DNA from: a virus
Direction: 5' to 3' (one strand)
Virus record (IMG/VR): IMGVR_UViG_3300032322_002510
Location: 1-34,785 of that record
DNA length: 34,785 nucleotides
This document shows, one piece after another, positions 14,248-34,785 of this stretch (the first letter of the stretch is position 1; every line of letters starts with the position of its first letter). Both the position numbers and the translations under genes were made by a program. The notes beneath the pieces are model-generated. The model made no database searches and was not told where the DNA came from. It saw only the letters and a list, made by a program, of their open reading frames with translations.

Positions 14248-14619
14248 ATGAAAGACATAATCAGAATGCAACAATTGGCTGGTATTATTACTGAAAATAA
14301 AGCCAGAAAAATGATGAAAATTTTAAATGAAAATATGGGATCAACAGATTCTGTAAAACTTTTCGATTTCCCCCAAGACATTAATGATGTCGATTCTTAT
14401 GAAGAAATGGGATTTAAAGTTGAAATCGACGACGAAACTAATGAAACTTATTATGCCAGTTTGTCATTTAAAGGACACGATTGGATGGCTGTTCTTTCAA
14501 TATTAGATGATTGTGAAAACTATAATTTACGTCCTAATTTAGAATATGATGGAAAAGTTTATAATTTTGATGAAGCACATGAATTAGTAGATTCTAAAGC
14601 CGCTGGTGAAAATATTTAA
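14248..14619 (+). CDS. CTS-tagged small acidic protein
   Basis: A 123-residue protein that begins MKDIIRMQQLAGIITENKAR. The RMQxLAGxIxE(N) core is shared with the start of the gene at 16354 and with the C-terminus of the gene at 21813, and has a gp21-like site IITE-N at residues 13-17. A second similar site (ILNEN) follows at about residue 29. The remaining 90 residues are acidic and look like a small compact alpha/beta domain (DVDSYEEMGFKVEIDDETNE; HDWMAVLSILDDCENY). No known family. It is monocistronic: candidate promoter upstream, strong terminator (14623-14651) immediately downstream. Proposed head-packaged protein; the mature function is unknown. Confidence 0.55.
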   Translation: MKDIIRMQQLAGIITENKARKMMKILNENMGSTDSVKLFDFPQDINDVDSYEEMGFKVEIDDETNETYYASLSFKGHDWMAVLSILDDCENYNLRPNLEYDGKVYNFDEAHELVDSKAAGENI

Positions 14620-14622
14620 ATT

Positions 14623-14651
14623 AAAGCTTGGGAAACCAAGCTTTCTTTTTT
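14623..14651 (+). terminator. Rho-independent terminator (9-bp stem, GAAA loop)
   Basis: Perfect stem AAAGCTTGG / CCAAGCTTT around a GAAA tetraloop, followed by TCTTTTTT. It comes four bases after the stop of the tagged gene at 14248. A 29-base core is repeated identically at 33930. Confidence 0.85.
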
Positions 14652-14663
14652 ATATTACCAGTT

Positions 14664-15596
14664 ATGGTAAATAATCTAGCTATATCCCTAGTTAATTCAG
14701 TATTAGGACAAGGTAAACCTACAGCCCGTGGCAACTACGCTTATACTTGCCCGTTCTGTAAACACCATAAACCCAAGCTTGAAATAGGTTTTGATGAAAA
14801 TTCATCGCACTATCAAAAATGGCACTGTTGGGTTTGTGATAAACGCGGCTCCAAAATATTAAGCTTATTTAAATCTATTGAAGCCCCCCAAGAAAAAATA
14901 TTAGAACTTAAATCTTTATTAGGTAGTGGTTTTAGAATTATTACCACAGAAACTAAAGCTGAAGCTAAACTACCAGCCGAATTTAAGCCTTTAATTGAGA
15001 TAACTGAAAAGAATATTATAGGAAGACATGCTTTGCATTATTTAAAAAAACGAGGTATTACTAAACACGATATACTTAAATATAATATAGGATATTGTGA
15101 GGGGGGAATATACGATAAAATGATTATAATACCTTCGTATAATGAAGAAGGTAAATTAAATTATTTTGTAGCTCGTAATTTTAATTCAAATTCCATAACT
15201 AAATATAAGAACCCCCCACTTAGCAAAAATATCATACCATTTGAAATATTTATAAATTGGTCATCTCCTCTTATACTGTGCGAGGGGCCATTTGATGCTT
15301 TAGCTATAAAACGAAACGCTATACCTTTATTAGGAAAACACATACAAGAAAGTTTAATGAAAAAAATAGTTACATCAACTGTAAAACAAATATACATAGC
15401 TTTAGATAACGATGCTATGAAAGATGCTTTACGATTTGCTGAATTATTACTTAATGAAGGTAAAGAAGTATATTTGGTTGATTTAGAAGACAAAGACCCA
15501 AGTGAGATGGGTTTTACTAAATTTACTTCACTTATTCAAACCACCCAGCCATTAACCCAATATAATTTAATGGCTAAAAAACTCCAATTAATATGA
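14664..15596 (+). CDS. DNA primase, T4 gp61-like (zinc finger plus Toprim)
   Basis: I chose ATG 14664 (MVNNLAISLVNSVLGQG) because the longer frame from 14628 would start inside the terminator. The 310-residue protein has an N-terminal zinc-binding motif (CPFC near residues 27-30 and CWVC near residues 55-58) as in CHC2-type primases. It has a Toprim domain with LILCEGPFDALA near residue 205 and the acidic IALDNDAMKDA near residue 248, the expected Glu and Asp-x-Asp metal ligands. Length is close to T4 gp61 (342). It would make RNA primers for lagging-strand synthesis with a gp41-type helicase that is not in this window. It overlaps the next gene by four bases (ATGA). Confidence 0.87.
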   Translation: MVNNLAISLVNSVLGQGKPTARGNYAYTCPFCKHHKPKLEIGFDENSSHYQKWHCWVCDKRGSKILSLFKSIEAPQEKILELKSLLGSGFRIITTETKAEAKLPAEFKPLIEITEKNIIGRHALHYLKKRGITKHDILKYNIGYCEGGIYDKMIIIPSYNEEGKLNYFVARNFNSNSITKYKNPPLSKNIIPFEIFINWSSPLILCEGPFDALAIKRNAIPLLGKHIQESLMKKIVTSTVKQIYIALDNDAMKDALRFAELLLNEGKEVYLVDLEDKDPSEMGFTKFTSLIQTTQPLTQYNLMAKKLQLI

Positions 15597-28300: not shown

Positions 28301-29239
28301 ATGGATAAAATTTTTTATACTTATATCCACATTCGCCCGGACATTAATGAGCCCTTTTATGTAGGTAAAGGTAAAGGAAAACGCTATAAAACTAAAACAG
28401 GTAGAAACCAATATTGGCATAATGTTGTAAATAAAAATAATGGTGTTTTTGAATCTAAAATATTATTTGAAGGATTAACTGAAAAAGAAGCCTTATTAAA
28501 AGAACAAGAAATAGAAAAAGAATTTAAAAAAAAAGGATATGGTTTGGTTAATTTAGCTGAAACCGGAAATTCTGGTCCTGTAGGGGTTTCTAGAACAGAA
28601 GAACACAAACAATCCTTAAGTAAAGCTACTAAAGGTAGAATAAGTCCTAATAAAGGAAAAAAACATGATCCCTTTCCTGAGGAATCAAAATATTGGAAAG
28701 GAAAAAATAGGCCTAAAGATACTAAAATGAAACAATCATATTCACAATCTAAACGATGGGAGGAAAAAGGCAATGAATTAAAGCAAAATTTTAGAAACAA
28801 AATAGGCAAAAAAATACTTCAAATAGAAGCAAAAACCCTAACCCCCCTAGAAATTTTCCCATCCCTAATAGAGGCTAAAGAAAAAACCCAAATTAATGTA
28901 ATTATAAATTGTGCTGCAGGTTTACAAAAAACAGCGGGGGGGTATATTTGGGTATATAAACACCCTAAGAACCCATATTTTGAATATATTATTAATGAAA
29001 ATGAAGTAATACGTGTATTTGAAAATAAAGATTTAGGAACTGAGGAACTTTGGCATCGGGATTTGGAGGATCGATTAATAGAATCTATTGGAAACACAGA
29101 TTGGCAAATACAACTTGATAATCAATTGCCATCTTCCCTAAATGGTCGTATATTTATACCCAGACACGAATTTCACCGTGTTATAAAAGGAACAGGAACA
29201 CTCAAATTAAAGATATATAAAATACAGGCCGATTCATAG
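28301..29239 (+). CDS. GIY-YIG homing endonuclease fused to a cupin-like domain
   Basis: A 312-residue protein. Residues 1-85 are a GIY-YIG nuclease (FYTYIHIRPDINEPFYVGKG with the Y..YVGKG core, GRNQYWHNVV, Glu in EKEALLKEQEIE). Residues about 95-145 are NUMOD3-type minor-groove modules (RTEEHKQSLSKATKGR). Residues 170-220 are a NUMOD1/IENR1 helix-turn-helix ending GGYIWVYK. The usual end of such enzymes is there, yet the frame continues for 90 residues with VIRVFENKDLGTEELWHRDL, EDRLIESIGNTDWQIQLDNQ and FIPRHEFHRVIKGTG. This is a cupin-like metal-binding domain (WHRD, HRV). It is a chimera created by homing into a cupin-like gene. The first 80 residues are closely paralogous to the gene at 30298. 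Confidence 0.8.
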   Translation: MDKIFYTYIHIRPDINEPFYVGKGKGKRYKTKTGRNQYWHNVVNKNNGVFESKILFEGLTEKEALLKEQEIEKEFKKKGYGLVNLAETGNSGPVGVSRTEEHKQSLSKATKGRISPNKGKKHDPFPEESKYWKGKNRPKDTKMKQSYSQSKRWEEKGNELKQNFRNKIGKKILQIEAKTLTPLEIFPSLIEAKEKTQINVIINCAAGLQKTAGGYIWVYKHPKNPYFEYIINENEVIRVFENKDLGTEELWHRDLEDRLIESIGNTDWQIQLDNQLPSSLNGRIFIPRHEFHRVIKGTGTLKLKIYKIQADS

Positions 29240-29335: not shown

Positions 29336-29851
29336 ATGAATAAAAAAATTGTAATAGTAGGAGCAGGAGTAGCAGGCATAAACGCTGCTACCAAACTCGT
29401 TGATAATGGTTACCCGGGTGAATTGATTACAATTATTGATATGGGTAAAGACCCGTATCAACGCAAGCCTGAAGAGGTAATGACAGGTATGCTAGGTGCT
29501 GGAGGGTGGAGTGATGGCAAATTAACATACCACACAGCAATTGGAGGTCAATTGTCTAAATATTGCGGTGAAGACAAAGCAATGGAATTGATGGATCAAG
29601 TAATTACCAATTTCAAACGTTTCCACCCAAAACCAGAAGAAGTACAATGTTCAAATCCTGTTGAGGAACCTGAATTTATTAAACCATACTTTGGTTTACG
29701 TTTATTCCCAGTATGGCACGTAGGTACAGATTATTTATCTGAAATTGCTAAAAATTGGTATGATTATTTAGTAGAGAAAGGTGTTAATTTCGAATGGGAA
29801 ACTAAAGTAACAGATATTGATTTTGAAACAGGAGAAGTAATAATAGAATAA
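29336..29851 (+). CDS. FAD-dependent oxidoreductase, N-terminal half of a split gene
   Basis: 171 residues from ATG 29336 (MNKKIVIVGAGVAGINAATK); an upstream ATG at 29318 is possible but adds only MLKISN. The start is a classic dinucleotide-binding Rossmann motif GAGVAG (residues 9-14). It is followed by ITIIDMGKDPYQRKP and TGMLGAGGWSDGKLT as in COG2509-type FAD-dependent dehydrogenases. The protein stops at DIDFETGEVIIE, just where such enzymes continue with a second strand and the conserved GTGKAG loop. That continuation is found at 30990, beyond two inserted genes. The two halves together (171 + 261 residues) equal one normal-sized enzyme. Whether they assemble is unknown. Confidence 0.8.
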   Translation: MNKKIVIVGAGVAGINAATKLVDNGYPGELITIIDMGKDPYQRKPEEVMTGMLGAGGWSDGKLTYHTAIGGQLSKYCGEDKAMELMDQVITNFKRFHPKPEEVQCSNPVEEPEFIKPYFGLRLFPVWHVGTDYLSEIAKNWYDYLVEKGVNFEWETKVTDIDFETGEVIIE

Positions 29852-29861
29852 AACACATAAC

Positions 29862-30305
29862 ATGACAACAAAATATTTTTTTGATTTTAATAATTTAAAA
29901 ATTTTAGGAGGTTTTAAAAACAGAGTTCATTTACTAGGTATAAAAGAGACATATGATGAAACACTAATGCCTGAATTAAAAGTAGGAGTATCATATAATA
30001 TGGGCGATTTTCCTGAAAGCGAAATGGAGGAGTGTATTTTATCAATAGATAGAAAACTTTTTCATAAAATGTTAAATAAATGGTTAGATGAAAAATTAGA
30101 TTATTGTAACCGCTGGAACCATTATTGTGGTGTAGGTGGATTTATTTATGGTAAAAATGTAAAAAAAGAATATGATACTTACATTTATGAATATATTGGT
30201 GTTGAAGATAATGAAACAAACGATGGCTTAGAAGAAGTTAAAAAAGATATGGTTGTTTACACTGTAGATTCTTTTGATGAATTAATTGATATGGAACATG
30301 GATAA
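29862..30305 (+). CDS. Hypothetical protein inside the split oxidoreductase
   Basis: A 147-residue protein of unknown family (MTTKYFFDFNNLKILGGFKN). It has several aromatic residues and three Cys (EECILS, DYCNRW, HYCGVGG), with an acidic C-terminus (DNETNDGLEEVKKDMVVYTV). It lies between the N-terminal half of the oxidoreductase and the second GIY-YIG gene, whose ATG it overlaps by eight bases. It is probably carried by the homing element as a passenger, or is a pre-existing neighbour. No nuclease motif is visible. Confidence 0.45.
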   Translation: MTTKYFFDFNNLKILGGFKNRVHLLGIKETYDETLMPELKVGVSYNMGDFPESEMEECILSIDRKLFHKMLNKWLDEKLDYCNRWNHYCGVGGFIYGKNVKKEYDTYIYEYIGVEDNETNDGLEEVKKDMVVYTVDSFDELIDMEHG

Positions 30306-30993
30306 TAAATTCATAGTATACACTCATATTCGCCCTGATACAAATGAACCATTTTATGTTGGGAAAGGAGTACCTGGAAGAGAAATTAGAACATGCGGTA
30401 GAAATCAATATTGGCATAACATTGTAAATAAAAATAATGGCATATTTGAATCTAAAATATTATTTGAAGGATTAAATGAGGGTGAAGCACTACTAAAAGA
30501 ACGAGAAATAGAATTGGATTTAAAAAATAAAGGTTATATATTAACTAATATAATAGAATGTGGTGTTAAAGCTGGTACTACCGGAATGAAACACTCTGAA
30601 GAATCCAAACAAAAGATGAGTAACGGTTTAAAACAATATTACAATGAAAATCCTAACCCTAAAAAAGGTATTAAGATGAGTAAGGAAAGTTGTGAAAAAA
30701 AGAGTAAATCTATGTTAGGTAAAAAAGTTAAATTAGGTATAAAAGAATCTGATGAAACTAGAAAAAAGAAAAGTGATGCTTTTAAAGGAAGAATATATAG
30801 TGAAGAAAGTAAACAAAAGAAAAATGAAAAATTAAAAGATAAAAACATTTATGTCTTTTATAATTTATTAAATGATGAAAAGTTTAAAGGAACTAGGAGA
30901 GAATTTCAAGATAAATTTGATTTAAACAGTGGAAGGTTAAGCCATTTAATAAATAATAAAATTTCTAAATATAAAAATTGGATAAAAATATGA
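30298..30993 (+). CDS. GIY-YIG homing endonuclease splitting the oxidoreductase
   Basis: A 231-residue protein from ATG 30298 (MDNKFIVYTHIRPDTNEPFY); an in-frame TTG at 30286 is less likely. Residues 1-85 form the GIY-YIG domain (VYTHIRPDTNEPFYVGKG, GRNQYWHNIVNKNNG, GEALLKEREIE). Several NUMOD3-type repeats follow (KHSEESKQKMSNGLKQYY; SDETRKKKSDAFKGRIYSEE). The C-terminus (IYVFYNLLNDEKFKGTRREF .. GRLSHLINNKISKYKNWI) is a NUMOD1-like helix-turn-helix. The N-terminal domain is nearly the same as in the gene at 28301, with very different tails. The stop overlaps the ATG of the C-terminal oxidoreductase half (ATGA), so translation of that half may be coupled to the endonuclease. Confidence 0.82.
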   Translation: MDNKFIVYTHIRPDTNEPFYVGKGVPGREIRTCGRNQYWHNIVNKNNGIFESKILFEGLNEGEALLKEREIELDLKNKGYILTNIIECGVKAGTTGMKHSEESKQKMSNGLKQYYNENPNPKKGIKMSKESCEKKSKSMLGKKVKLGIKESDETRKKKSDAFKGRIYSEESKQKKNEKLKDKNIYVFYNLLNDEKFKGTRREFQDKFDLNSGRLSHLINNKISKYKNWIKI

Positions 30994-31775
30994 AAAAAAT
31001 TAAATTTGATACATGCATAGTAGGCACAGGTAAAGCAGGAATAGACTTCTCAGCTAAATTAGCTCAAAAGTACAATTTACCTACCGAAGTCAAGTCAACC
31101 CAGATTGGAGTGAGATTTGAAAGCCCACAACACCATTTCCAAAAACTAATCGATATTTCATATGATTTCAAACTTTATAGAAAATTTGAAGATAAAGGCG
31201 TTTCGCTTCGCTCTTTTTGTACAAACAATAATGCGGCATATGTTGCCGTAGAAGAAACATACGGCGACCACAGCTACAACGGCCACGCTAAAAAAGATGA
31301 AGCATATAGAAACAATATGACTAATTTTGGCATATTAATGGAAATTAATGGTATTAAAGATCCGTTTGAATGGTCACGTAAATTAGTTTCCAAAGTACAA
31401 TCTCATGGTACTGGTTTATATTATAGCCCATCTCGTAAACCATCAATTACTTCAGAAGGAAATGAAGTCTCGGCTCACCAAATCGATTGGATGGGATTAC
31501 AATTAGTATTAGAATATTTTCAAGGATACTTTAGATATATTACAGATTTCATTGAAGACATGAAAAAAGTATTTCCAACATTAGGAGATGATTGGGGAAT
31601 ATACATTCCCGAGGTAAAATATTTAAGCCCAGAGCCTCTTGTAAACTACAACGATTTATCCTTAACAAAATATCCGAATGTACACTTTGTTGGCGACGCT
31701 CTTTCAGCAAGGGGTATAACTGTTAGTGGAGCTCACGGTATTTATGTGGCTTCTTCGATTTTACAAAGTTCTTAA
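30990..31775 (+). CDS. FAD-dependent oxidoreductase, C-terminal half of a split gene
   Basis: 261 residues from ATG 30990 (MKKIKFDTCIVGTGKAGIDF); the longer TTG start at 30978 is unlikely. It begins with the strand and GTGKAG loop that follows the N-terminal half in intact relatives. It continues with QIGVRFESPQHHFQKLIDIS and a Cys-containing FCTNNNAAYVAVEE. It ends with NVHFVGDALSARGITVSGAH, then GIYVASSI, the FAD-contacting GD motif of the fold. It lacks its own nucleotide-binding N-terminus, so it must pair with the product of 29336 to be active. It is followed by a promoter motif and the HNH gene. Confidence 0.8.
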   Translation: MKKIKFDTCIVGTGKAGIDFSAKLAQKYNLPTEVKSTQIGVRFESPQHHFQKLIDISYDFKLYRKFEDKGVSLRSFCTNNNAAYVAVEETYGDHSYNGHAKKDEAYRNNMTNFGILMEINGIKDPFEWSRKLVSKVQSHGTGLYYSPSRKPSITSEGNEVSAHQIDWMGLQLVLEYFQGYFRYITDFIEDMKKVFPTLGDDWGIYIPEVKYLSPEPLVNYNDLSLTKYPNVHFVGDALSARGITVSGAHGIYVASSILQSS

Positions 31776-31785
31776 ATATTTATAA
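31776..31785 (+). promoter_or_regulatory. Candidate promoter motif ATATTTATAA inside a start-codon hairpin
   Basis: Exact motif copy immediately after the oxidoreductase stop. Its 3' part forms the 5' arm of the hairpin 31778-31809. Initiation about seven bases downstream would yield a transcript lacking that arm. Confidence 0.55.
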
Positions 31786-31809
31786 TCGAACAAAAACTCG
31801 ATTATGAAT
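31778..31809 (+). promoter_or_regulatory. Hairpin covering the start codon of the HNH endonuclease
   Basis: The core is an 8-bp perfect stem ATAATCGA / TCGATTAT with loop ACAAAAAC. It extends to 12 pairs (one G-U) through the whole ATG at 31804-31806. Read-through RNA from the oxidoreductase would fold and hide the start codon. This matches the logic known for T4 homing endonuclease genes. Confidence 0.6.
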
Positions 31810-32751
31810 TACCAAAGAATATACAACCAAATAGTTGAACGTGCCCAGAATAGAACTTTAGATGGTTATAAAGAAAAACACCATATAATCCCAAAATGTA
31901 TTGGTGGGAATAATGATAAAGAAAATATAGTAAAATTAACAGCAAAGGAACATTTTTTATGTCATATATTACTTTGTGAAATTTATCCTAAAAATATAAA
32001 ATTATATCAAGCTTTATGGTTAATGTCTACTAACAAAAATAAAAAAAAAGGGAAAAGATATAAAGTATCATCTAGAGTTTATGAAAGAATTAAAATAGAA
32101 GCTTCTAAAATATACAAAAATCGAACACAAACTAAAGAAGAAAAACAAAAAAGAGTTAATTCTCAAATTTTAACTTGGGATAAAAAACGCAAAGAACAAG
32201 GTTTAATAATTAATAAAAATTATATTTTTGATTTTATAAAATCATACCCCAATATTAAATTGACTGAAAATAATAAACATTGTATAAACTATTGTTATAA
32301 TGATAATATTAATATTAAAAACATTATTTGTTTGTGTGGTAATGGAATAAAAAGGTTTCAAAACTATACTCAAGGTTATAAACAATATTGTAGTCAAAGA
32401 TGTGCTAATTTATATAATAAAGAAAAATCTTTGCAAACTAAAGAAAATAATGGTTTATGGGATAATTCTAAAGAAAGATTACGTAAAAAAGAAATAGAAA
32501 ATTTATCTAAAATAGAAATTGAACAACTTAGAAGAAAACGAATTAGTGATAAACAAAAAGGCAAAACTAAATTAGGAAACAGTCATAGTAAACCCATTAT
32601 ACAATTCGATACCCAAGAAAATCTTATCCAAGAGTGGCCAAGCATTAGGCAAGCTGGTTTCAGTTTAGTAGGGAATCAAGGTGAACCTATTAGAAAATGT
32701 CTTAAAGGTTTACAAAAAACAGCTTATGGGTACAAATGGAAATATAAATAA
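31804..32751 (+). CDS. HNH homing endonuclease
   Basis: A 315-residue protein. The HNH nuclease core is at residues 24-58 (KEKHHIIPKCIGGNNDKENI, then VKLTAKEHFLCHILL: the HH, N and H positions). A Cys4-type zinc element lies near residues 175-205 (IICLCGNGIK .. YKQYCSQRCANLYN). The C-terminal about 55 residues (PIIQFDTQENLIQEWPSIRQ .. LKGLQKTAYGYKWKYK) are a NUMOD1/IENR1 DNA-binding module like that of the gene at 28301. It is free-standing, between the end of the oxidoreductase and a small hypothetical gene. Expression is probably limited to transcripts from its own promoter because of the hairpin over its ATG. Confidence 0.85.
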   Translation: MNYQRIYNQIVERAQNRTLDGYKEKHHIIPKCIGGNNDKENIVKLTAKEHFLCHILLCEIYPKNIKLYQALWLMSTNKNKKKGKRYKVSSRVYERIKIEASKIYKNRTQTKEEKQKRVNSQILTWDKKRKEQGLIINKNYIFDFIKSYPNIKLTENNKHCINYCYNDNINIKNIICLCGNGIKRFQNYTQGYKQYCSQRCANLYNKEKSLQTKENNGLWDNSKERLRKKEIENLSKIEIEQLRRKRISDKQKGKTKLGNSHSKPIIQFDTQENLIQEWPSIRQAGFSLVGNQGEPIRKCLKGLQKTAYGYKWKYK

Positions 32752-32800
32752 AACTTGGTTTTTTAAACTTTCTTTTTTACATTTATATTAAAATAATAAT

Positions 32801-33043
32801 ATGGAAAAATGGGAACCAACTAAAAAACTCACTAAAACAGACGGAACAATAATGTACGTATGGGACAGTAAATTACACAACTGGGAAGGGCCAGCACTAA
32901 TACCCGAAGGTAATATGCGAAAAAGAGAATATTATCTTTATGGAAATAAAAAAACAGAAGAACAATGGAAAGAAGCTCGTAAAGATAGGGAAGGTCTTCC
33001 TTGGTATAAAAAAACCTCAATTACAGGAACCAGTAGATATTAG
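32801..33043 (+). CDS. Small conserved phage protein
   Basis: An 80-residue protein (MEKWEPTKKLTKTDGTIMYV; LHNWEGPALIPEGNMRKREY, then YLYGNKKTEEQWKEARKDRE). The pattern W-x-GPA-x-IPxGNxxxxEYYxxGxxxxxEEW is one I remember from short phage hypotheticals; it resembles a MORN-like strand pair. No catalytic motif. It stands alone between the HNH gene and the tag-cassette genes, with a weak promoter-like ACATTTATAT at 32779. It may be a regulatory or host-interaction protein; function unknown. Confidence 0.5.
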   Translation: MEKWEPTKKLTKTDGTIMYVWDSKLHNWEGPALIPEGNMRKREYYLYGNKKTEEQWKEARKDREGLPWYKKTSITGTSRY

Positions 33044-33060
33044 TTTTTATTTTTTTTTGT

Positions 33061-33070
33061 ATATGTATAA
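33061..33070 (+). promoter_or_regulatory. Candidate promoter motif (ATATGTATAA variant)
   Basis: Nine of ten match to ATATTTATAA, preceded by a T-rich run and followed by the A-rich leader of the gene at 33099. The leader CAAACAAAAA-type sequence is repeated before the gene at 33405 and again at 33903. Confidence 0.45.
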
Positions 33071-33098
33071 CAAACAAAAACATTCAAATTTTAAAAAT

Positions 33099-33338
33099 AT
33101 GAAAGTATCACAATTAAGACAACTAATTAGAGAAGAAATTAGAGGAGTATTGAATGAAAAAATTATTAATGATAATCATTTCTTAAATGAAATGGTAATT
33201 AACGATTTTATGTCATATAAGGATTTTGCCCTCTCCGTAGCTAAATATTTGATGAAAAACTATGAACGCAGTGATTATGATAGTTTTATGAGGGTTTTAA
33301 GCTTAAAACTTAAAGGTTATAAAGACGATTATATTTAA
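33099..33338 (+). CDS. CTS-tagged small protein (copy 1 of duplicated tag)
   Basis: 79 residues from ATG 33099, chosen because MKVSQLRQLIREEIRGVLNE is the tag shared with the next gene. A longer in-frame start at 32940 would overlap the previous gene without any sign of use. LNE-K at residues 18-21 is the predicted processing site, leaving about 59 residues. The mature part is helical and polar with a hydrophobic centre (INDFMSYKDFALSVAKYLMK; YDSFMRVLSLKLKGYKDDYI). No family recognised. It is followed by a hairpin without T-run (33348-33372) and the second tagged gene. Confidence 0.6.
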   Translation: MKVSQLRQLIREEIRGVLNEKIINDNHFLNEMVINDFMSYKDFALSVAKYLMKNYERSDYDSFMRVLSLKLKGYKDDYI

Positions 33339-33347
33339 AGACACTTA

Positions 33348-33372
33348 GGTTTTAAGATCTCATTTTAGAACC
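33348..33372 (+). other. Intergenic stem-loop without T-run
   Basis: A 10-bp stem (GGTTTTAAGA / TTTTAGAACC, two G-U pairs) with loop TCTCA, between the two tag-cassette genes and directly before the repeated leader. No poly-T follows, so it may be an attenuator, an mRNA stabiliser or a processing site. Confidence 0.4.
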
Positions 33373-33404
33373 ATAAACAAACAAAAATATTTAAATTTTA
33401 AAAC

Positions 33405-33902
33405 ATGAAAGCATCACAATTAAGACAACTAATTAGAGAAGAGATTAGAGGAGTATTGAATGAAAACCTAACTAATGAAGATGCTACTCTTATTAAAAAG
33501 AATTCTCCATTCGGAAATGAAAAACCTTTACAAGTGGGTGATTTAATTATGTGGGATGAAATAGGTCGTGGGGGGATGGGCCGGACATTAATAGGGAGAA
33601 AAATAGGTAAAGTAGTAAAAATATTAGGATCAGCTAATTTACAAGCTGAAGAAATCAAAACCGGAGATTTACATACAGTTTCTCGTAGAGAATTAACTAA
33701 GGTTCCTGGTGTAGGGGATAAAATAGAAGCAACTTTAGATTATAATTACGGGGCAGGAAGCGGCTCTCAAGGATCTAGTAGAATTTCAGGTACAGTTAAA
33801 AAAATAAATTTAGAAGGTATGACCCTAATGCTCCAACCAGAAAATTCAGACAAAACTTTCAAAGTAAGCATGACTGATTTACAAAATTTAAAAATTTATT
33901 AA
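33405..33902 (+). CDS. CTS-tagged protein with SH3-like beta-barrel (copy 2 of duplicated tag)
   Basis: 165 residues. The tag MKASQLRQLIREEIRGVLNE is followed by N, giving LNE-N. The mature part begins with polar residues and then GDLIMWDEIGRGGMGRTLIG .. KIGKVVKILG. Later come VGDKIEATLDYNYGAG and ISGTVKKINLEGMTLMLQPE. These are short strands with Gly turns as in tandem SH3-like or KOW-like barrels. No catalytic motif. Its tag DNA is nearly the same as that of the gene at 33099 while the rest is unrelated. A truncated third leader copy and a terminator follow. Confidence 0.6.
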   Translation: MKASQLRQLIREEIRGVLNENLTNEDATLIKKNSPFGNEKPLQVGDLIMWDEIGRGGMGRTLIGRKIGKVVKILGSANLQAEEIKTGDLHTVSRRELTKVPGVGDKIEATLDYNYGAGSGSQGSSRISGTVKKINLEGMTLMLQPENSDKTFKVSMTDLQNLKIY

Positions 33903-33922
33903 ATAAACAAACAAAAATATTT
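33903..33922 (+). repeat. Orphan third copy of the tag-gene leader
   Basis: Twenty bases (ATAAACAAACAAAAATATTT) identical to 33373-33392, the leader of the gene at 33405. Here it is followed directly by terminator 33930-33957 and not by a gene. This looks like the scar of a lost cassette or one recombination endpoint. Confidence 0.7.
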
Positions 33923-33929
33923 TAAAGTT

Positions 33930-33957
33930 AAGCTTGGGAAACCAAGCTTTCTTTTTT
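33930..33957 (+). terminator. Rho-independent terminator, repeat of the one at 14623
   Basis: Stem AAGCTTGG / CCAAGCTT, GAAA loop, T-rich tail. A 29-base core is the same as that of the terminator after the gene at 14248, about 19 kb away. Confidence 0.85.
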
Positions 33958-33999
33958 ACATTCACGCAAATAAAACAATATAGTTATGAAAATAGGCTT

Positions 34000-34048
34000 A
34001 TGTTGTTTTTCCTATTTTTTATAATATTTATGATAGATAAAACAACAT
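34000..34048 (+). promoter_or_regulatory. Inverted repeat over the start codon with a promoter motif in the loop
   Basis: ATGTTGTTTT at 34000-34009 is perfectly complementary to AAAACAACAT at 34039-34048, which includes the first two bases of the ATG at 34047. The 29-base loop holds ATATTTATGA (34024-34033), a nine of ten match to the candidate promoter. RNA started in the loop would lack the 5' arm. Confidence 0.55.
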
Positions 34049-34785
34049 GCCTGCTAAATTAACTCAACAAGATTTTATAAATAAAGCTAATAAAAAACAT
34101 AATAACTTTTATGATTATTCATTAGTTAATTATGTAAATGCTGTTACTAAAGTAACAATTATATGCTCTAAACATGGGGGGTTTGAACAACAACCTAATA
34201 ATCATTTATATGGTCAACGTTGTATTAAATGTATGGGAGATAATGTTAGAAAAGCAAGAATATCTAATACTAACGATTTTATTAAAAAATCAAAAGAAAT
34301 CCATGGGGAAAAATATGATTACTCTTTGGTAAATTATAAAACAGGAAAAGATAAAGTAATAATTATATGTTCTACTCATGGTGAGTTCTTACAAACACCC
34401 TTTGCTCATTCAAGCCCCTCAATGAAACAAGGGTGTCCTTTTTGTAAAATATCAAAAGGAGAAGATGAAATTGAAAGGTTTTTAATAAAAAATAATATAG
34501 AATATATTAGAGAATATAAGTTTAAAGATTGTATAAACCCCAAAACAAATAAAAAACTCCCTTTTGACTTTTACCTCCCTCAGATAAATACTATAATAGA
34601 ATACCAAGGAGAACAACATTATAAAAAAACGGGATATTTTGAAAGTAGAGGAGGAGGGTTAAAAGATTTACAATACAGAGATAAAATTAAAAAAGAATTT
34701 GGGATTTTAAATAATTTTAATTATATTGAAATATCATATAAGCAATTTGAACAAATAAAAACAATTTTAAAAAATAAAATATGCG
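34047..34785 (+). CDS. Vsr/DUF723-type endonuclease, partial at right edge
   Basis: 246 codons from ATG 34047 (MPAKLTQQDFINKANKKHNN), open at the window end. Two treble-clef-like DUF723 repeats are visible: YDYSLVNYVNAVTKVTIICS..HGGFEQQPNNH..CIKC and YDYSLVNYKTGKDKVIIICS..HGEFLQTP..GCPFC. A nuclease domain follows (GEDEIERFLIKNNIEYIREY, then LPFDFYLPQINTIIEYQGEQ, HYKK). It has the E..D-x-Y/F-L..E-Y-x-GxQHY pattern of Vsr-like/EDxHD homing enzymes of the restriction-endonuclease fold. It is probably another free-standing homing endonuclease. Its start codon lies in a hairpin arm. Confidence 0.75.
   Translation, partial: MPAKLTQQDFINKANKKHNNFYDYSLVNYVNAVTKVTIICSKHGGFEQQPNNHLYGQRCIKCMGDNVRKARISNTNDFIKKSKEIHGEKYDYSLVNYKTGKDKVIIICSTHGEFLQTPFAHSSPSMKQGCPFCKISKGEDEIERFLIKNNIEYIREYKFKDCINPKTNKKLPFDFYLPQINTIIEYQGEQHYKKTGYFESRGGGLKDLQYRDKIKKEFGILNNFNYIEISYKQFEQIKTILKNKIC

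Follow-up and report, generated by a model that had tools for sequence, protein, structure and literature searches.

A homing endonuclease gene that runs to the end of a phage DNA fragment starts within a predicted RNA hairpin whose loop holds a candidate promoter, and we consider it likely that hairpin and internal promoter together form a timing switch for the nuclease. The window analysed, meaning the whole stretch of 34,785 bases, is an IMG/VR fragment of a contractile-tailed phage. The closest cultured relative found was Flavobacterium phage immuto, with 35% identity over 66% of one structural protein, which makes a flavobacterium the probable though not certain host; the phage group is Immutovirus-like, and its uncultured members probably infect Bacteroidota. 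Both endonuclease hairpins of the window, one at the DUF723-like gene (34000-34048) and one at an HNH gene (31782-31805), are described below together with their relatives.

The nuclease gene, its hairpin and its insertion site

The following features surround the gene at 34047:

33930-33957, + strand: intrinsic terminator upstream of the insertion, also in the empty-site phage; its 33930-33949 part is the sole + strand match of a terminator scan of 31600-34200
33986-34003, + strand: remnant of the target gene, which encodes a P-loop protein (AAA_28, E 5.5e-16), with its ATG at 33986 and first six codons ATGAAAATAGGCTTATGT; from the empty-site alignment
33993-33997, + strand: 5' side (UAGGC, target-gene remnant) of an outer stem that pairs with GCCUG at 34049-34053 in the MFE and centroid folds
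34000-34009, + strand: 5' arm ATGTTGTTTT, its first four bases (ATGT) from the interrupted target gene and the remainder from the cassette
34024-34033, + strand: late-promoter-like motif ATATTTATGA in the hairpin loop
34036-34038, + strand: putative late transcription start in the loop, just 5' of the 3' arm; from motif-to-ATG spacing
34039-34048, + strand: 3' arm AAAACAACAT, spanning the leader plus the A and T of the ATG
34047-34784, to the contig end, + strand: free-standing homing endonuclease gene, DUF723-like, possibly of Vsr fold; from PHROG and DUF723 profile scores
34781-34785, + strand: ATGCG, rebuilt P-loop gene start that overlaps the nuclease gene at its 3' end and is truncated by the contig end; matches relatives

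The product of the 34047 gene matched PHROG 559 ('HNH endonuclease', E 1e-57) and PHROG 9084 ('homing endonuclease', E 4e-28), confirming the original prediction that its family differs from that of the HNH gene (PHROG 655). The type assigned to it there, Vsr/DUF723, could not be demonstrated: the DUF723 (PF05265) score of 20.7 bits lies just short of the Pfam cut-off of 20.9, a PDB profile search with the nuclease gave no credible match and an NCBIfam search returned nothing. By its sequence, the gene qualifies as a homing endonuclease at a specific site. An empty-site phage (L341/L089) is 98% identical to the window over 1,458 bp and carries the same HNH gene but lacks a Vsr-like gene; a further stretch of 101 bp matches at 98% identity and stops at window position 34003, within codon 6 of the P-loop gene. 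Because the empty site falls at this codon, the P-loop gene restarts at the nuclease 3' end in seven relatives (L009, L015, L017, L427, L428, L429 and L431) and the window itself ends in ATGCG, the alignments identify the cassette as a site-specific insertion into the P-loop coding start that rebuilds the start of its target. A short ORF at 33986-34024 (MKIGLCCFSYFL), considered as a regulatory uORF, was ruled out as such, being the cut-off remnant of the P-loop gene. Since Vsr-like leaders of similar type were found behind different upstream genes, leader and nuclease seem to move as a unit.

At 29336-31775, a FAD-dependent oxidoreductase gene is split by an ORF (29862-30305) and a GIY-YIG gene (30298-30993), and one relative (L342) has a 435-aa ORF. 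At 33072-33460, adjacent genes (~33099 and ~33405) share a common leader and the N-terminus MKxSQLRQLIREEIRGVLNE; gene content in this region differs in the empty-site phage.

The arms, the ATG and the motif lie exactly where they had been predicted. The two arms form a perfect 10-bp inverted repeat that extends to the ATG at 34047, and the predicted fold lengthens this stem both outward, by the outer stem listed above, and inward (CUAUU/GAUAG), so that the whole ATG is paired, in agreement with the earlier claim of a paired start codon. RNA from 33990 to 34070 folds at -18.7 kcal/mol (z -4.7), a value equalled by 0/200 shuffles, and RNA from 34037 onward is without structure (0 kcal/mol). Opening the start region costs a predicted 9.6 kcal/mol in the long RNA and 0.1 kcal/mol in the short one. 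The leader of the gene, GATAGATAAAACAAC, has no Shine-Dalgarno sequence.

Repeat length was ruled out as evidence. In this AT-rich window, perfect repeats of 10 bp whose loops measure 3-45 nt show no excess (4 observed against a mean of 5.4 in shuffles), and thus the repeat by itself proves nothing. The position at a start codon is informative: among 40 valid gene starts (41 were taken, and the one at 33100 was mis-registered by one base), those at 34047 and 31804 ranked second and third most unusually hard to open, with p 0.007 each. The least accessible start in the window is that of a primase-like gene (ATG 14664, opening 13.7 kcal/mol), where, within 14600-14670, bases next to the AUG (UAUUACCAGU) pair with the last part of the upstream gene (GCUGGUGAAAAUA), an intrinsic terminator lying between the two partners; this hairpin has no late motif inside.

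A late-promoter-like motif

The claim that the loop carries a promoter motif found support in the group-wide position of such motifs before ORF starts. The exact 10-mer occurs twice in the window, and ATATTTATRA occurs 11 times, in every case on the + strand, with no copy on the - strand. Across the full set of collected loci, ATATTTATA has 427 distinct sites, of which 243 precede an ORF start by 2-40 nt, compared with ~4% for permuted-word controls (14/319 and 10/252); control words that overlap the motif core show intermediate positional bias, and the read-backwards control was not clean because the core is still in it. The motif is found upstream of structural genes, including a tail-tube-like gene with an identical leader (GATAAAACAACATG), and also before structural genes of the cultured phage immuto. 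The GATAAAACAA leader was ruled out as exclusive to homing genes, since it also precedes structural genes without an upstream complement.

Distances from motif to ATG form clusters at 4-6 and 13-22 nt; we therefore infer that transcription begins about 4-6 nt past the motif, which for the motif at 34024 would be 34036-34038. From its distribution, the motif looks like the late promoter of this phage group. At 1599, 25562 and 28301 the motif stands just 4-5 nt before the ATG, and such short gaps suggest that the group makes leaderless, or nearly leaderless, late mRNAs. Outside the homing genes, a - strand gene at L018:3389-3778, whose product may resemble S-adenosylmethionine decarboxylase, has an arm pair (TTGGCTAA/TTAGCCAA) around the motif that extends to the ATG.

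Pairing among related homing genes

The second hairpin of the window involves three features:

31776-31785, + strand: motif ATATTTATAA, overlapping the 5' arm of the HNH-gene hairpin
31782-31805, + strand: companion hairpin with arms ATAATCGA (31782-31789) and TCGATTAT (31798-31805) and the ATG at 31804; from fold and covariation
31804-32751, + strand: HNH homing endonuclease gene (PHROG 655, E 3e-42), inserted after the FAD-dependent oxidoreductase gene and before the gene at 32801

The oxidoreductase and 32801 genes are adjacent in relatives that lack the HNH gene (L370, L078 and L429). The original prediction that 31776-31809 repeats the design with arms of unrelated sequence held up: RNA from 31760 to 31850 folds at -17.2 kcal/mol (z -6.0), and the pairing covaries among relatives. 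For this comparison, 80 relatives of the 31804 gene were fetched and their leaders listed. In class I, the arms enclose the motif and extend into the ATG (TCCATTAGGTAC/GTACCTAATGGA in L347; TTTGACACT/AGTGTCAAA in L362; and, with one G-U pair each, CCGTTGGGTAC/GTACCCAATGG in L349 and CCGTGAGGCACA/TGTGCCTCATGG in L361). In class II, the last bases of the motif also belong to the 5' arm, with ATAATCGA/TCGATTAT in the window, L343, L356, L360, L373 and L392, and ATACGT/ACGTAT in L344, L345 and L367, the version in L342 being shorter. The motif lies 12-16 nt before the ATG in class III, leaving no space for a hairpin, and in class IV is itself an arm or adjoins one (L348, L351 and L393).

Pair counts, for which all arms were registered by hand, gave 93% of cells paired in class I, compared with 26-40% for slid versions, and six pairs (12 cells) had changed on both sides, a covariation score reached by 0/500 shuffles; the score of class II was matched by 3/500. 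Across the HNH family, loop length and dyad centre vary with pairing kept, the 3' arm repeatedly includes the AUG, and arms differ even between proteins ~60% identical. In the Vsr-like family, 79% of cells were paired over 13 distinct leaders, with arms registered by hand and L424 and L432 left out for an inserted A in the arm; six pairs had changed on both sides, a result matched by 22/500 shuffles. Pairing is strongest in L427 and L428 (GTTGTTTTTCC/GGAAAAACAAC), L436, L009, L422 and the window. Because of the hand registration, and because pairing of the ATG, which is not conserved in this family, is clear in no leaders other than those of the window and L436, the Vsr-like family taken alone is moderate evidence.

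A simple duplex energy, with shuffling confined to the upstream part, performed weakly on leaders whose arm overlaps the motif, and we therefore adopted the computed energy needed to open the start region in the long versus the late RNA, counting a difference of at least 5 kcal/mol as a predicted switch. Where there is room for an arm, 28 of 36 HNH and 8 of 14 Vsr-like leaders switched, compared with 19 of 206 other motif genes, counts that are not independent events because the leaders are related to one another; this is the enrichment over shuffled leaders that the prediction had called for, found here among relatives. In 13 of the 49 motif-bearing HNH leaders the motif is too near the ATG for a hairpin, and none of these switched (0/13). 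A blind ranking of 290 motif genes by the same difference, made before the larger HNH set was fetched, placed homing endonucleases in all of the top six positions.

These distributions also bear on the idea of a common selective rule. The hairpin does occur at two unrelated homing genes, but it is absent from both GIY-YIG genes of the window, the one at 28301, whose ATG follows the motif by 5 nt, and the one at 30298, which lacks the motif too, as well as from the 13 close-motif HNH leaders. The start-codon hairpin is not universal among the homing genes of this phage.

Other structures were seen near HNH starts. In the near-leaderless class, strong GC-rich hairpins end right 5' of the motif in L386, L390 and L371. 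Seven further leaders (L404, L411, L412, L413, L415, L420 and L402) have a conserved AGTAGAG(A/G)C..CGACCTCGAAAG element in a stem directly 5' of the HNH start, at ~20-70 nt, and an Rfam search of the conserved element found upstream of some HNH relatives gave no matching family.

A proposed timing switch and known parallels

The switch, supported by the sequence, the predicted fold, covariation, the group-wide motif position and the empty site, would work as follows. Transcripts entering from upstream would carry both arms, and because the hairpin in this long RNA pairs the leader and the AUG, ribosomes would be kept from initiating the nuclease; the P-loop gene, restarted at the nuclease 3' end, would still be translatable from it. 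Late in infection, RNA polymerase would begin at the ATATTTAT promoter within the loop, and the late RNA, lacking the 5' arm and left with an unstructured, A-rich leader of ~10 nt, would be translated into nuclease. Delay could be needed because the P-loop gene depends for its expression on RNA that runs through the nuclease gene. In this scheme we infer the late-promoter role of the motif, the start position, the read-through RNA and the effect on translation. Against it, the strong terminator at 33930-33957 should stop read-through from upstream, and strong pairing (p<=0.05) was found in only 6 of 14 Vsr-like leaders, in which pairing of the ATG is not conserved. Searches of five related records for T4 gp55, run without a positive control, and for Sigma70_r4 were empty, which also weighs against it.

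Of the other readings, a DNA operator is improbable. The dyad would then bind the endonuclease or another repressor rather than fold as RNA, as in autorepression by I-TevI, which represses its own late promoter (PMC2988022), and the dyad does overlap the promoter; however, its spacing ranges from a 6-8-nt loop to 29 nt, its centre shifts against the motif, and its arms, which extend into the start codon, have diverged with pairing kept. It is very improbable that the hairpin governs RNA fate, as a terminator, attenuator or processing site, instead of ribosome access: the stem-loop is strong, and an additional stem of 8 bp (33989-33996/34011-34018) has U-rich sequence after it, but the AUG lies repeatedly within the 3' arm in the HNH family. 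The main stem was ruled out as an intrinsic terminator, as it is followed by GCCTGCTAAATT, with no U tract, and is absent from the results of the terminator scan (31600-34200). Just as hard to credit is a real hairpin around a motif that is not a promoter, with the nuclease always repressed or opened by a trans factor; the empty gp55 and Sigma70_r4 searches, which identified no sigma factor, favour it, but the motif shows strong positional and strand bias before structural genes, its shortest gaps are 4-6 nt and hairpin leaders retain it 5' of the 3' arm. A chance palindrome in an AT-rich leader near a start codon has next to nothing to recommend it, since, common as perfect short-loop repeats are in shuffled windows, the start-codon position at both genes, the enrichment in relatives and the covariation speak against it, and the doubly changed class I pairs refute it at the family level.

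The switch most likely belongs to the type known from T4 I-TevI, and hairpin-delayed late genes have precedent in T4 (PMC2988022, PMC3014915). As with T4 I-TevI (td intron), I-TevII and I-TevIII, the endonuclease lies in a foreign transcription unit whose long RNA folds over the initiation region, and, as with I-TevI, a promoter, here a candidate one, is placed where it would give late RNA without the 5' arm (PMC2988022). Unlike those intron-encoded genes, in which the Shine-Dalgarno sequence is hidden, the present genes are free-standing and hide the start codon and A-rich leader; with no Shine-Dalgarno sequence in the leaders, the switch would act on the start codon itself. Such masking fits Bacteroidota hosts, where initiation proceeds without Shine-Dalgarno sequences and is tuned by structure at the start (PMC6847099) and where, in Prevotella, a structure of -5.2 kcal/mol at the start lowered expression five-fold (PMC3155529). 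The T4 late promoter is TATAAATA, read with the gp55 sigma factor, whereas the box here is ATATTTAT and the uncontrolled gp55 search of five records was empty. Two free-standing homing genes, mobE of Aeromonas phage Aeh1 and segB of T4, likewise combine a sequestering hairpin with a late promoter (PMC2988022, PMC3014915); the mobE switch was demonstrated experimentally, whereas ours is predicted, and mobE and segB are HNH and GIY-YIG genes of gammaproteobacterial phages, whereas ours are DUF723/Vsr-like and HNH genes of an Immutovirus-like group. In the leader of T4 gene e (lysozyme), early read-through RNA is similarly folded and poorly translated and late RNA is free (PMC3014915), though gene e is a phage lysis gene and not a mobile nuclease.

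The principle thus has precedents, among them free-standing genes (mobE, segB) and several nucleases of unrelated kinds within a single phage (PMC2988022), and because recurrence at unrelated homing genes was already on record for I-TevI, I-TevII, I-TevIII, segB and mobE (PMC2988022), a common rule is not new as an idea. As far as our literature search shows, what is new lies in the phage group and the promoter, in the start codon as the target, in the nuclease family and in the wide range of natural examples that covary. More tentatively, the late-promoter homing genes of this group might be timed in either of two interchangeable ways, through a start-codon hairpin that its internal promoter sheds or through a near-leaderless late RNA whose AUG is usable only at the 5' end; arms would turn over fast, built partly from target remnant at insertion, pairing would be re-made repeatedly, and delayed expression would be a general, convergent rule across phages. 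In T4, early translation of I-TevI harmed splicing of its host intron (PMC2988022). Whereas hairpin-delayed homing genes previously came from a handful of T4-like cases, the present set adds dozens of natural co-varying examples, which, with the empty-site control, make the reason for delaying mobile nucleases testable, and it yields a candidate late-promoter motif for phages that are uncultured and probably infect Bacteroidota.
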